58,638 bases of DNA from Akkermansia muciniphila (GTDB taxonomy: Bacteria; Verrucomicrobiota; Verrucomicrobiia; Opitutales; Opitutaceae), in the NCBI GenBank assembly GCA_945888375.1, contig CAMCZZ010000021.1, forward strand, positions 1 to 58,638, written 5' to 3'. Numbering within the stretch: position 1 is the stretch's first letter; each line of letters opens with the position of its first letter. This document shows, one piece after another, positions 52,925-57,486 of the stretch. The position numbers and the translations under genes are program-made. The notes under the pieces were generated by a model. That model was given only the letters and a program-made list of their open reading frames with translations, was not told the origin of the DNA and ran no database searches.

Positions 52925-52957
52925 AAGCCCCGACCTAAGGTCGGGGCTTTAGTTTTT
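52925..52957. terminator. Bidirectional rho-independent terminator
   Basis: A 12-bp perfect stem (AAGCCCCGACCT against AGGTCGGGGCTT) with a minimal loop, followed by TAGTTTTT on the plus strand and TTTTTTATG on the minus strand. It serves both the M24 peptidase transcript and nrdA, whose stop lies seven bases away. Confidence 0.9.
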
Positions 52958-55900
52958 ACTGGCAAGCTTCGCACTCGCCGCCGTTACGCATCGCTTCGAT
53001 GCTACAGGCGGTTTTTTCAGCCGCTGTATAAGTCTTCTTGGGCGGTTCTGCGCCAGGAACCGGTGCTGCGGTGGCACCACCTGCGATACCACGAACCTCC
53101 TTTTTATTATTGACGCTGGCCTTTTCGATACCGGAGGCACCGAGGCAGCGAAGATAATAGGTGGTCTTCAAACCGGCGCGCCAAGCATGACGATACATGT
53201 GGCTCATCGTCTTCATATCAGCGGTCGGCAGCCAAAGGTTGACCGACTGGGACTGGTCGATCCACTTCTGGCGACGGGCAGCCGCGTCCACGACCCACTT
53301 GTGATCAATGGCAAAGGCAGTAAGATATCGGACCTTAAGCTCTTCGGGGACCCGGTCTATGTCCTTCAGCTCACCGTCGAAATACTTGAGATCATCAATC
53401 ATCTGCTGATCCCAGAGGCCACGGTTCTTTAAATCTTTCACAAGGAATGGATTGAGAACCGTGAATTCTCCAGAGAGATTTGATTTCACATATAAATTTT
53501 TATACAGAGGCTCGATACAAGCGCTGGTTGCAGTTATGTTTGAAATGGTCGCGGTGGGGGCGATAGCGAGGACATTGCTATTACGCATACCCTGACGGGC
53601 GATTTTACCGCGCACAGAAGTCCAGTCCATTTTGCCGCCGCGAGCAACCTCGATGGGAGCGCCGCGCTCCTGCTCATGGATATCAATAGTATCTTGAGGA
53701 AGGAGGCCTCGCGACCACTTGGAACCTTGGTAGGAGGAGTAAGTGCCGCGTTCACCGGCCAGATCGGAGGAGGCCTCATAGGCATAATAGGCTATGGCCT
53801 CCATGGCCTCGTCATTAAATTCAACAGCGCCCTGGGAGGCGAAGGGAATCCCCTTCATATATAAAGCATGGGCAAGCCCCATTACCCCCAGGCCGATGGG
53901 GCGATGGCGTAAGTTGGAACGTTTAGCCGCCTCAGTGGGGTAGAAATTGATGTCAATTACGTTATCGAGAGCTCGGACTGCAACGCTGATGGTGTCACGT
54001 AGTTTATCGTGGTCGAGCGAGCCATCGGGCTTTAAATGCGTTTCGAGGATAACGGAGCCAAGATTACAAACGGCCGTCTCGTCATTCGAGGTATTGAGGG
54101 TGATCTCGGTGCAGAGATTACTGCTGTGAATGACACCGCAGTGATCTTGAGGGGAGCGAAGATTGCAGGCGTCCTTGAAGGTGATCCAAGGATGGCCGGT
54201 CTCAAATAACATGGACAGCATCTTTTTCCACAACTCCAAGGCTTCAATTCGTTGCCCGTAAATCTTGCCCTGTTCGGCTAGTTGCTCGTAGCGCACATAA
54301 GCGTCCTCGAACTTTTTCCCGTAAAGTTCGTGAAGATCGGCGACTTCGTTAGCGCGAAAGAGTGTCCAGTGCTGGCGGTTTTCCATACGTTTCATGAACA
54401 AATCGGGAATCCAATTTGCCGTGTTCATGTCATGGGTGCGCCGGCGGTCGTCGCCAGTGTTTTTACGAAGCTCGAGGAACTCAAAAATATCGTTGTGCCA
54501 GGACTCGAGGTAGGCACAGCCAGAGCCTTTTCGTTTACCGCCCTGATTAACCGCAACAAGTTGATCGTTGTGCAGTTTAAGGAAGGGGATCACGCCTTGG
54601 GATTCGCCATTGGTGCCGCCAATGTAGGCGCCGGTGCCGCGCACAGCAGTCCAGGATCCGCCCAAGCCGCCGGCCCACTTGGAAAGTTGGGCATTTTCGG
54701 CAATGCCTCGATACATGATGCCCTCAAGACTGTCATCGACGTAATATAAATAGCAGGACGATAACTGGGAGTGCAAGGTGCCGGAATTAAAGAGGGTCGG
54801 AGTGCTACTGCAGAAACGACGGCTCTTGTATAAACGGTAAAGGGCGACAGCGCGGTTTACGCGTTCGTTCTTTTCATCAAGGAAGAGCCCCATTGCCACA
54901 CGCATCCAAAAGAATTGGGGGGTTTCGAGCCGGCGTGCGGGCTTGACGGTCTTGTCGATGATCAAATAACGATCATACAGAGTCTGAACCCCAAGGAAAT
55001 CAAATTCAAGGTCCGAGGTGGGATCGAGCTCAGCGGCGAGGGCGTCGAGATTATATTCGGCAAGTCGAGGAGTATAGCGCTTAATTGCGATACCGTGAGC
55101 AATAGTCTTTTTGAAGGCCTCAATATGGAAAGACTTAAGCTTGGTGATTCCATCGCGAACAATATCCCAGCCTAAAACTTCTTCGTAAATGTAGGAGAGC
55201 TGGATACGGCCAGCGAATTTGGCAAAATCAGCATCTTTCTCAATCAGTGTCTTGGAATTGAGTATGATAGTCTGATCGAGATCTTTTTGGGTAATTTGAT
55301 CAAAAATTGAGCGGGTAAGCTCCGTCTCAATTTGCTCGGTAGTCAAACAGAGCTCTAGACCAATGGAGGCAAACTCTATACGCAGACGGAGATCTTCGCG
55401 ATCCCAAAGCGTGGTGGTGCCGTCAGCCTTTTTGACTACAATCATAGTGGGCTGTGAAGCAGGAGGCGTTTTACTATCTGCCATATCGTCGGCGATGCGG
55501 GCCTCGTTACGGGCCGAACGATAAAGGATATAGGCTTCAGCCACTTTGTAGTGACCAGCTTTCATAAGTTCCTCCTGAACGATATCCTGGACTTCCTCAA
55601 TATGGACGAAGGCTTGCTTGGAGGACAGGACCCGAGTTGAAACGGCATCTGTGATGGATGCGGCAGGCCGACTATCGCGTTGCAAGGACAGAAAGGCTTT
55701 TGCTACCGCGAGTTCAATTTTTTGAGGAATATAAGGAACCACTTGTTTATTTCGGCGGATAACCCGGATTGTGGTAACTGAGGCCGAAACACTGAGTTTG
55801 CGACCCCGGTTTAAGAGCAGGGTTTTGGCTACATCATAGGCCTTGGCTTCGACCAGTATGCGCTCTAGTGTTTGATAAAGATCATTCAGCGAAAGCTTTA

Positions 55901-56222
55901 AAGGAGACGTGCGCTGAGACTCGACCAAGAGGGTGGCGGCGACCTCCTTTAAAATGCGCCCTACAAAAGCGCGTGATTCCGAAGTGTAGACGTTGCCATC
56001 TTCGCCACGGGCCAAATGCACATTGACGAGAGCCTGGCCCAAGGTTTCGGCGATTTCTCCAAGATCAAAGCGGGCTTCTCCATGGGGGGCGAGGAGAAGG
56101 ATTTCAGGCAGAAGCGGGGTATCGGCGAGAATGCAATCACGCCAAGCATAGGCGGGCTTCTGGTCGCGGGGAGTCTGAGTTGCTTTTTTAAGAGCGAGAT
56201 CGTGCTGAAGGACGGGATTCAC
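52956..56222 (-). CDS. nrdA: Ribonucleotide reductase class I, alpha subunit, with N-terminal ATP-cone array
   Basis: 1,088 residues, long for NrdA. The N-terminus has a canonical ATP-cone (about 148-240, TTIRVIRRNKQVVPYIPQKIELAV), a second (about 259-350, IVVKKADGTTTLWDREDLRLRIEFA) and, before them, a divergent cone-like stretch (about 50-140). The catalytic barrel has C490 (SSCYLYY), N702-C704-E706 (SNLCTE) and C719 (AVCNLGS), the redox pair and radical Cys, and Y1022/Y1023 for radical transfer. C-terminal shuttle cysteines C1084 and C1087 (CEAC) accept electrons from thioredoxin-like partners. It reduces ribonucleoside diphosphates to deoxy forms. It lies 175 bases downstream of nrdB. Confidence 0.96.
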   Translation of the reverse strand: MNPVLQHDLALKKATQTPRDQKPAYAWRDCILADTPLLPEILLLAPHGEARFDLGEIAETLGQALVNVHLARGEDGNVYTSESRAFVGRILKEVAATLLVESQRTSPLKLSLNDLYQTLERILVEAKAYDVAKTLLLNRGRKLSVSASVTTIRVIRRNKQVVPYIPQKIELAVAKAFLSLQRDSRPAASITDAVSTRVLSSKQAFVHIEEVQDIVQEELMKAGHYKVAEAYILYRSARNEARIADDMADSKTPPASQPTMIVVKKADGTTTLWDREDLRLRIEFASIGLELCLTTEQIETELTRSIFDQITQKDLDQTIILNSKTLIEKDADFAKFAGRIQLSYIYEEVLGWDIVRDGITKLKSFHIEAFKKTIAHGIAIKRYTPRLAEYNLDALAAELDPTSDLEFDFLGVQTLYDRYLIIDKTVKPARRLETPQFFWMRVAMGLFLDEKNERVNRAVALYRLYKSRRFCSSTPTLFNSGTLHSQLSSCYLYYVDDSLEGIMYRGIAENAQLSKWAGGLGGSWTAVRGTGAYIGGTNGESQGVIPFLKLHNDQLVAVNQGGKRKGSGCAYLESWHNDIFEFLELRKNTGDDRRRTHDMNTANWIPDLFMKRMENRQHWTLFRANEVADLHELYGKKFEDAYVRYEQLAEQGKIYGQRIEALELWKKMLSMLFETGHPWITFKDACNLRSPQDHCGVIHSSNLCTEITLNTSNDETAVCNLGSVILETHLKPDGSLDHDKLRDTISVAVRALDNVIDINFYPTEAAKRSNLRHRPIGLGVMGLAHALYMKGIPFASQGAVEFNDEAMEAIAYYAYEASSDLAGERGTYSSYQGSKWSRGLLPQDTIDIHEQERGAPIEVARGGKMDWTSVRGKIARQGMRNSNVLAIAPTATISNITATSACIEPLYKNLYVKSNLSGEFTVLNPFLVKDLKNRGLWDQQMIDDLKYFDGELKDIDRVPEELKVRYLTAFAIDHKWVVDAAARRQKWIDQSQSVNLWLPTADMKTMSHMYRHAWRAGLKTTYYLRCLGASGIEKASVNNKKEVRGIAGGATAAPVPGAEPPKKTYTAAEKTACSIEAMRNGGECEACQ

Positions 56223-56397: not shown

Positions 56398-57486
56398 TCA
56401 GAGGTCGTCATCTTTTACACCGTCATTTAGTGCGGAAGATTTTTGATATTCAGTCACACGACCCTCGAAGAAATTTTGCTCCTTTTTAATGTCCATCATC
56501 TCAGCCAGCCAAGGAAGCGGATTTTTAATGCCAGGGGAAAGGGGTTCGAGGCCGCAACCTTCAAGGCGACGGTCTGCAATATAATCAATATAGTTAACAA
56601 ACTCCTCCACTGCTAGGCCAACCGCGTTGACTGGCAGACAGTCACGGATGAATTCCTTTTCCAAGGTAACCGCCTCACGCATAGTCTCTCGTAACTCATC
56701 CTTAAATTCGGGAGTCCAAATTTCGTGGTTTTCCTCCACGAGGTCCATAAACAAATTGCGGAACACTTCAATGTGGTTACTCTCGTCGCGAAGGGTATAG
56801 CGGAACATTTCGCCAATGCCGCGGAATTTATTTTGGCGATAGAGCGAAAGAACCATGCCGAAGAGTCCGTAGAATTGCGTTCCTTCCATACACTGACCGA
56901 ATACAAATATATTCTTTGCCAGTAGTTTTTTATTTTCGGGGAGGGTCAAATCGAGATCCCGGCGTAAGTCACGCGAGACTTTGGTCACGAAGGAATTTTT
57001 CCGGACGATGGTCGGGACATCCTCGAACATCGCCTCGCACTCATGAGGGTTAATACCCAATGAGCTAATCATGTAGAGTAGCGAATCTGCGTGAATGTTT
57101 TCTTCGTGGGCGTGACGACCTAGGACAAGTTTCAACTCGGGTGCGGTTACAAGCTCACGGACAACATGTTGAATGTTATCACCAACAATGCCCTCGGCGG
57201 CCGAAAAGTAGCCAATACCCATGCGAATGATCCATCGTTCGGCATCGGATACGAGTGTGGTGTCGCGCCACTGCTCGATATCCTTGCCCATGGGGATGTC
57301 CTCGGGCTCCCAGTGGTTGGCTTTCATCTTACGATAAAGGTCATAAGCCCACGTATACTTAAGAGGTAACAGGTTAAAACACATGGTCTGATGACCATTG
57401 ATGACCTTTTTGCCATTAAAGGCGGCCTCGGCTTTATTTTGATCGAGGGTGAAGGTCTTGGCGCCTACGGTGAAGGATTTTTGCAT
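56398..57486 (-). CDS. nrdB: Ribonucleotide reductase class I, beta subunit, subclass Ic-like (no radical Tyr)
   Basis: 362 residues with the ferritin-like fold. Metal ligands by alignment: E98 (SAAEGIVGDNI), E129 and H132 (EENIH), E201 (QCMEGTQF), E235 and H238 (RDESNH). Their spacings match chlamydial NrdB. The position of E. coli Tyr122 (four after the first His) is L136 in HADSLLYMI, and the first ligand is Glu rather than Asp. Both are marks of subclass Ic, which uses a Mn(IV)/Fe(III) centre in place of a tyrosyl radical. Y138 matches the chlamydial Tyr two residues on. It generates the oxidant for NrdA. Confidence 0.94.
   Translation of the reverse strand: MQKSFTVGAKTFTLDQNKAEAAFNGKKVINGHQTMCFNLLPLKYTWAYDLYRKMKANHWEPEDIPMGKDIEQWRDTTLVSDAERWIIRMGIGYFSAAEGIVGDNIQHVVRELVTAPELKLVLGRHAHEENIHADSLLYMISSLGINPHECEAMFEDVPTIVRKNSFVTKVSRDLRRDLDLTLPENKKLLAKNIFVFGQCMEGTQFYGLFGMVLSLYRQNKFRGIGEMFRYTLRDESNHIEVFRNLFMDLVEENHEIWTPEFKDELRETMREAVTLEKEFIRDCLPVNAVGLAVEEFVNYIDYIADRRLEGCGLEPLSPGIKNPLPWLAEMMDIKKEQNFFEGRVTEYQKSSALNDGVKDDDL

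Follow-up and report, generated by a model that had tools for sequence, protein, structure and literature searches.

According to passages in PMC4118035 and PMC8463856, the small subunit (R2) of the class Ic ribonucleotide reductase (RNR) of Chlamydia trachomatis holds a Mn/Fe pair that reacts with O2 to form Mn(IV)/Fe(IV); an electron is then delivered via Y222 and W51, and the resulting Mn(IV)/Fe(III) starts catalysis. The active state is reported to be EPR-silent (PMC4118035), and hydroxyurea acts on the chlamydial enzyme with a fast phase when it is turning over (PMC8463856). A passage in PMC11883743 describes a terminal solvent ligand on the Mn that likely bonds to E227 and E89. Class Ic, or NrdBzc, proteins are marked by Phe, Leu or Val at the site of the radical Tyr (passages in PMC3267527 and PMC6370689), and leucine, isoleucine and valine are documented in R2c in a passage of PMC3824934 that cites Hogbom 2010. 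The Mn/Fe groups R2c and R2lox have four Glu, whereas class Ia and Ib have Asp as the first ligand (passage in PMC4118035), and class Id keeps the Tyr at the site (passage in PMC6370689). In addition, a sequence map groups Ic-like with Ia-like proteins and describes several groups as largely unexplored (passage in PMC8463856), and class Ic has been attributed to a chlamydial ancestor (passage in PMC9816063, the one open paper found that mentions both class Ic RNR and Verrucomicrobia). The passages on the Leu variant of NrdBzc in PMC3267527 and PMC6370689 link it to no particular organism, clade, structure or activity. In the open literature, no paper on a class Ic RNR in Opitut- taxa was found, nor any metal analysis or activity of a Leu-type member.

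In the present study, we analysed a window of 58,638 nucleotides (the whole stretch of DNA shown above), which encodes a Tyr-less R2, the radical-generating subunit of the only RNR detected in the cell. The gene, nrdB, and its key codons, assigned from alignment columns, are as follows:

56398..57486, - strand: nrdB, R2 (beta) subunit, Leu-type class Ic-like, ORF of 362 residues
57310..57312, - strand: Trp59 codon, electron relay (E. coli W48, C. trachomatis W51)
57193..57195, - strand: Glu98 codon, first metal ligand (E. coli Asp84, C. trachomatis Glu89)
57091..57102, - strand: E129-N-I-H132 codons, metal ligands of the ExxH motif
57079..57081, - strand: Leu136 codon, CTA (57081-57079), radical-Tyr position (E. 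coli Y122, C. trachomatis F127)
57073..57075, - strand: Tyr138 codon (C. trachomatis Y129)
56893..56895, - strand: Gln198 codon, Gln in 151/151 Leu rows and Val/Ile in the 12 Phe rows compared
56884..56886, - strand: Glu201 codon, metal ligand (C. trachomatis E193)
56773..56799, - strand: Y230-T231-L-R-D234-E235-S-N-H238 codons, with relay Tyr Y230 (C. trachomatis Y222), pocket Thr T231, relay Asp D234 and metal ligands E235 and H238
56446..56448, - strand: Tyr347 codon, C-terminal relay Tyr (C. trachomatis Y338)

The coordinates, strand, length of 362 residues and named residues of the initial annotation were all correct on re-reading. A profile search matched the product to PF00268 with 224 bits, and its score for NF005550 was 332.5 bits, above the cut-off of 309; among the relatives tested, one Phe-type protein scored 615 bits and two Tyr-type proteins scored 653 and 696 bits. 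The two Tyr-type NrdBz rows tested (L202 and L205) belonged to this same NCBI family. The nearest PDB chains by sequence were the C. trachomatis R2 (E 1e-80) and then 6y2n (E 3.8e-70), both with Phe at the radical site, and none of the five solved R2s aligned to window NrdB had Leu there.

The C. trachomatis R2 (PDB 1syy, 4d8f, 4m1i) resembles window NrdB in being Tyr-less, in its Glu first ligand and in its six ligands. The two proteins share 41% identity and differ at the radical site, where chlamydial Phe127 is replaced by Leu. All six metal ligands of window NrdB (E98, E129, H132, E201, E235 and H238) match the chlamydial protein, H238 aligning with H230 in an alignment of 197 rows, and chlamydial E227 and E89 both have counterparts. 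Equivalents of chlamydial W51, Y129, Y222, D226 and Y338 are likewise all present, as W59, Y138, Y230, D234 and Y347, and Ala97, directly before ligand 1, corresponds to chlamydial Ala88. Twelve key residues read WEEHLYEYDEHY in window NrdB versus WEEHFYEYDEHY in Chlamydia; at C. trachomatis W51, E89, E120, H123, F127, Y129, E193, Y222, D226, E227, H230 and Y338 the window protein has W, E, E, H, L, Y, E, Y, D, E, H and Y, respectively. In contrast, window NrdB has Thr, Gln and Gln in the places of chlamydial Ile223, Ile190 and Phe196. The 6y2n R2, which we take to be that of Saccharopolyspora erythraea, and an R2 from an Aureimonas plasmid (L204) are also Tyr-less, with Phe at the site and a Glu ligand, and share 37 and 36% identity with window NrdB. 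The Tyr-type NrdBz proteins (class Ia) differ from it in having Tyr at the site and Asp as the first ligand, at 33-39% identity; these rows came from plasmids of Pseudomonas, Acidithiobacillus and Flagellatimonas and from two phages.

The initial annotation had placed L136 at the radical-Tyr position of class Ia enzymes, Y138 opposite the chlamydial Tyr two residues on and Glu at the first ligand. All three placements held: L136 shared the column of E. coli Y122 and C. trachomatis F127 across 197 rows, Y138 aligned with Y129, and E98 aligned with C. trachomatis E89 and E. coli D84. A Tyr of window NrdB in the radical position would have spoken against the subclass Ic reading, but the alignment put Leu136 there. 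The initial annotation had also equated the ligand spacings with the chlamydial ones, which was true of E98-E129 (31), E129-H132 (3) and H132-L136 (4) but not of L136-E235 (99 versus 100), where a one-residue gap near residue 171 accounts for the difference. Its list of chlamydial residues omitted the ligands E193 and H230, the counterparts of which (E201 and H238) are present.

The predicted structure agreed with this assignment. An AlphaFold2 model of window NrdB, built with 57 sequences, had a mean pLDDT of 86.5; residues 336-362 fell under 50, and Y347 was therefore placed by sequence alone. The best Foldseek match was C. trachomatis NrdB (E 3.4e-22), and the best VIA match was the C. trachomatis Mn/Fe NrdB (Z 43.6, 327 residues aligned, 2.7 A); E. 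coli class Ia structures reached a Z of at most 37.2, and those of class Id 33.7-34.8. No family closer than the chlamydial R2 appeared among the structural search matches listed. PF00268, the ligands (four carboxylates and two His) and the model all indicated a ferritin-like R2 fold, and the paired NrdA has a Tyr-Tyr pair and the active-site Cys, as expected of the partner of an R2. The radical-site Tyr is replaced by a residue of the set allowed for class Ic (Phe, Leu, Val), E98 is a Glu for Asp as the first carboxylate ligand, and kinship with chlamydial R2 and NrdBz was indicated by the NF005550 score over the cut-off and by a branch with 100/99 support. The dimanganese class Id did not fit, having a conserved Tyr where window NrdB has Leu. 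The subclass Ic assignment proposed earlier was supported at the sequence level by the Tyr-less site, the Glu first ligand, the chlamydial R2 as nearest solved protein in both sequence and fold, and the kept relay residues. The Leu in place of the chlamydial Phe, which had been put forward as a variation, is real, but Leu at a class Ic site is already in print and is itself not new.

The 197 distinct R2 rows comprised 151 with Leu, 33 with Tyr and 13 with Phe at the radical site. The Leu sequences consisted of the window protein, 69 from named records and 81 from other genomes; none was contained in another, four pairs differed by a single residue, and identity to window NrdB ranged from 51 to 100%. 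Geminisphaera colitermitum TAV2 (L074) and Verrucomicrobia bacterium IMCC26134 (L037) are among the Leu-type sources. In a first alignment, which included the nrdB product of the window itself and repeated sequences (the 111 locus rows represent 99 distinct proteins), Leu stood at position 136 in 112/112 rows. A pseudogene or sequencing slip was rejected as the origin of L136, because Leu was found in 151 distinct sequences down to 51% identity; chance is excluded. One Leu-type row, L079, has Gln at the position of ligand Glu201 (1/151), which is a sequencing error or a dead copy.

In the search of relatives, 40 of the 57 genomes (own included) had a match. Among those with a completeness of 90% or more and a contamination of 5% or less, a match was found in 31/42 and none in 11/42, so the 17 misses were not simply gaps, and not all relatives share the Leu type. 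Across the phylum, an R2 of any type was found in 90/288 genomes. A scan of named genomes kept the best 80 of at least 586 relatives, and the titles of these 80 name Verrucomicrobia, Opitutae, Opitutaceae or their genera, except for L032 ('bacterium') and L044 ('Rubrivivax sp.'). As sampled here, with the best 80 of at least 586 from that scan, the Leu clade came only from Verrucomicrobiota. Phe rows of the chlamydial kind (L115, L117, L120 and others) were also found in the phylum, in which both types are thus present, and the Leu type shares only 36-41% identity with the Phe members. L038 (titled Akkermansia muciniphila) and L044 carry Opitutaceae-like nrdB genes with 94 and 86% identity to the window's, and both are probably misnamed bins.

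Several further loci were observed. L259:5139-9122 (G101) encodes a deep-branching Leu-type NrdB with 49-51% identity, which retains Y230 but has His for Y138; nrdA comes next on the same strand. L257:7218-9532 and L258:11893-14324 (G163 and G251) show a tandem nrdB-nrdB'-nrdA arrangement. The nrdB' product retains the six ligands and Leu136, but Y138 and Y230 are replaced by His and Asn, respectively, and a conserved NFFE stretch close to the C-terminus is missing. This second copy evolves fast (branch 1.06) and might act as a helper beta' subunit. L195 (G301:C97) is a distant R2-like protein with 20% identity, Phe at the site, Glu as ligand 1 and Arg at 138, possibly an R2lox. In a genome of the same genus, L196 (G014:C138), on a 3.2 kb contig, is a second, Tyr-type R2 with 31-32% identity, which could derive from a phage, a plasmid or contamination.

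The residue at the radical site was closely coupled to ligand 1, which was Glu in 151/151 Leu and 13/13 Phe rows and Asp in 33/33 Tyr rows. After thinning to 66 rows at under 84% identity, 24 Tyr/Asp and 42 non-Tyr/Glu rows remained with zero exceptions; as these rows are mutually related, a p value for the pairing is overstated. We also compared 39 viral loci, which gave 37 rows: 29 Tyr/Asp, 4 Phe/Glu, 1 Phe/Asp (L253), 1 Tyr/Glu (L241) and 2 without the column. None of the 37 viral rows had Leu at the radical site. The L241 row comes from a fragment with a broken start, and the ligand column falls just there. L253:2486-4423, an ORF of 646 residues on a viral contig, is an R2 with an Asp ligand and Phe at the Tyr site. 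The pairing of Glu as ligand 1 with an absent Tyr is near-exclusive, though not fully so.

Trees were built without the two telling columns. The Leu rows lay on one side of a branch with an SH-aLRT of 97 in the 66-row tree; in a 50-row tree, which omits 16 distant, long or paralogous rows, this branch had 99/96 support and was present in 99% of 200 bootstrap trees. The Leu rows united with the Phe and Tyr NrdBz rows against other R2s (100/99, 44 rows). In the first tree, 6y2n and Aureimonas L204 clustered with the Tyr-type NrdBz rows (96), of which the tree contains only five. The 50-row tree drew three changes of state. With all Tyr-less rows constrained as one clade, the likelihood was 1.01 log units better than that of the free tree (p-AU 0.511), and a single clade of Phe rows was not rejected either (p 0.301). 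A claim of convergence, that is, of independent Tyr loss, was dropped because a single Tyr-less clade was not rejected.

The Leu clade carries its own pocket signature, defined as residues at least 95% uniform in Leu rows and present in at most one of the 12 Phe (L195 excluded) and 5 Tyr NrdBz rows. Near the site it includes Q198 and T231, each found in 151/151 Leu rows; at the T231 position the 12 Phe and the 5 Tyr NrdBz rows all carry Ile. Q204 was found in 149/151, versus Phe or Trp elsewhere, N130 in 150/151 and D134 in 151/151. T231 aligns with E. coli I234. A passage in PMC3824934 describes, in yeast numbering, three hydrophobic residues as the pocket round the tyrosyl radical, and with a worked-out offset of 35, T231 corresponds to one of these positions. 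Window NrdB retains F205 and F209 at the remaining two (151/151 and 149/151 Leu rows, respectively). The passages of the cited class Ic literature do not describe this signature. A polar residue at 231 was rejected as a mark of Tyr loss, since Ser also stands there beside Tyr in other R2s (7/33 Tyr rows and 3 viral Tyr rows). We considered whether the clade represents a separate Tyr-less design, with an independent Tyr loss, a pocket rebuilt with Thr231 and Gln198, and an altered cofactor tuning. Thr231 and Gln198 may hydrogen-bond near the metal site, and the metal pairing, potential or proton supply of the cofactor may be unlike those of chlamydial Mn/Fe, but we regard this reading as doubtful.

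The neighbouring gene of nrdB encodes the large subunit, with the following features:

52956..56222, - strand: nrdA, R1 (alpha) subunit, 1088 residues, directly downstream of nrdB
55503..55769, - strand: ATP-cone of NrdA, 71.8 bits, over the family cut-off
55188..55439, - strand: additional weak ATP-cone in NrdA, 22 bits versus a cut-off of 25.8

By motif, C490, C704, C719, Y1022, Y1023, C1084 and C1087 were present in NrdA, and we assume that their catalytic and relay roles follow E. coli. For the first 138 NrdA residues (55808-56222, - strand), Pfam gave no match with an E value of 1 or below; this stretch resembles a degenerate ATP-cone. No NrdR boxes were found upstream of the window's nrdB by a simple pattern. 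In the named Leu loci (best 80 of at least 586), nrdA lay downstream of nrdB on the same strand in 75/80; three of the other five lie on contigs that end within 500 bases, and L089 and L104 are without nrdA in 6 kb on each side. The opposite order, nrdA before nrdB, was found in three Phe loci (L115, L117 and L120) and in Aureimonas L204, and a passage in PMC3019208 gives nrdA-nrdB for C. trachomatis as well. The window's own genome (39 contigs, 3.22 Mb, 99.5% complete) contained no other PF00268 match, no PF02867 large subunit besides nrdA and no match to PF13597 (NrdD). A second R2 supplying the Tyr was rejected, as none was detected in this genome. Being part of the sole RNR pair detected in a 99.5% complete genome, window NrdB very likely works, and the cell appears to rely on nrdB and nrdA alone for the synthesis of new deoxyribonucleotides.

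Based on the residues, the absent Tyr, the Leu fixed together with Glu98 and the sole-RNR context, all of which were observed, window NrdB probably belongs to class Ic and uses a metal-centred oxidant, Mn(IV)/Fe(III), and no tyrosyl radical. The metals, oxidation states and electron path are proposed by analogy with the chlamydial enzyme. The four carboxylates, all Glu, and the two His would bind a Mn/Fe pair, which O2 would oxidise to Mn(IV)/Fe(IV); one electron would then pass via Y230 and W59 (chlamydial Y222 and W51) to give Mn(IV)/Fe(III). This species would oxidise the active-site Cys of NrdA via W59/D234, Y347 and the Tyr pair of NrdA, and Leu136 would merely fill the space of the lost Tyr. 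The metals need not equal the chlamydial ones, given the lower NF005550 score, the 36-41% identity and the inner-shell residues T231, Q198 and Q204. A metal-centred oxidant of another pair, either Fe/Fe (as Fe(IV)/Fe(III)) or the Mn/Mn of class Id, tuned by the pocket, would accord with the clade-wide changes near the site (Q198, T231 and Q204) and with a passage in PMC7239806, according to which metal selection in R2lox and class Ib R2 responds to a second-sphere change. However, Ala97 is as chlamydial Ala88, none of the six ligands deviates from Chlamydia, and the model fits class Id structures less well (17-23% identity; Z 33.7-34.8 versus 43.6), so another pair appears unlikely.

It is very unlikely that a neighbouring Tyr, Y138 or Y230, bears a stable radical in place of residue 136. 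Both are widely conserved (Y138 in 148/151 Leu rows; Y230 in all but the two nrdB' paralogues), but both also occur in the chlamydial protein, whose oxidant is metal-based (passage in PMC8463856), and L181 has Leu with His at 138. Least probable, and by our estimate hardly credible, is an R2-like oxidase (R2lox) with no role in ribonucleotide reduction. R2lox likewise has four Glu and no radical Tyr (passages in PMC4118035 and PMC3824934), and its models score window NrdB weakly, but these scores are 21-46 bits versus 332 for NF005550. According to the same passages, R2lox has Ala for the pocket Phe and no C-terminal Tyr, whereas window NrdB has F205 and Y347; with nrdA directly downstream and no other R2 detected in the genome, the R2lox identity was rejected on Y347, F205 and the adjacent nrdA.

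In the passages of the cited literature, detailed class Ic chemistry rests on the Chlamydia enzyme alone. What the present analysis adds is a Leu fixed in a large clade, tied to Glu98, with an invariant altered pocket and in the sole RNR detected. With its co-changed surroundings, the clade of 151 Leu sequences provides natural variants for the role of the pocket once the Tyr is gone, and it is also usable for asking what sets the choice of Mn/Fe.
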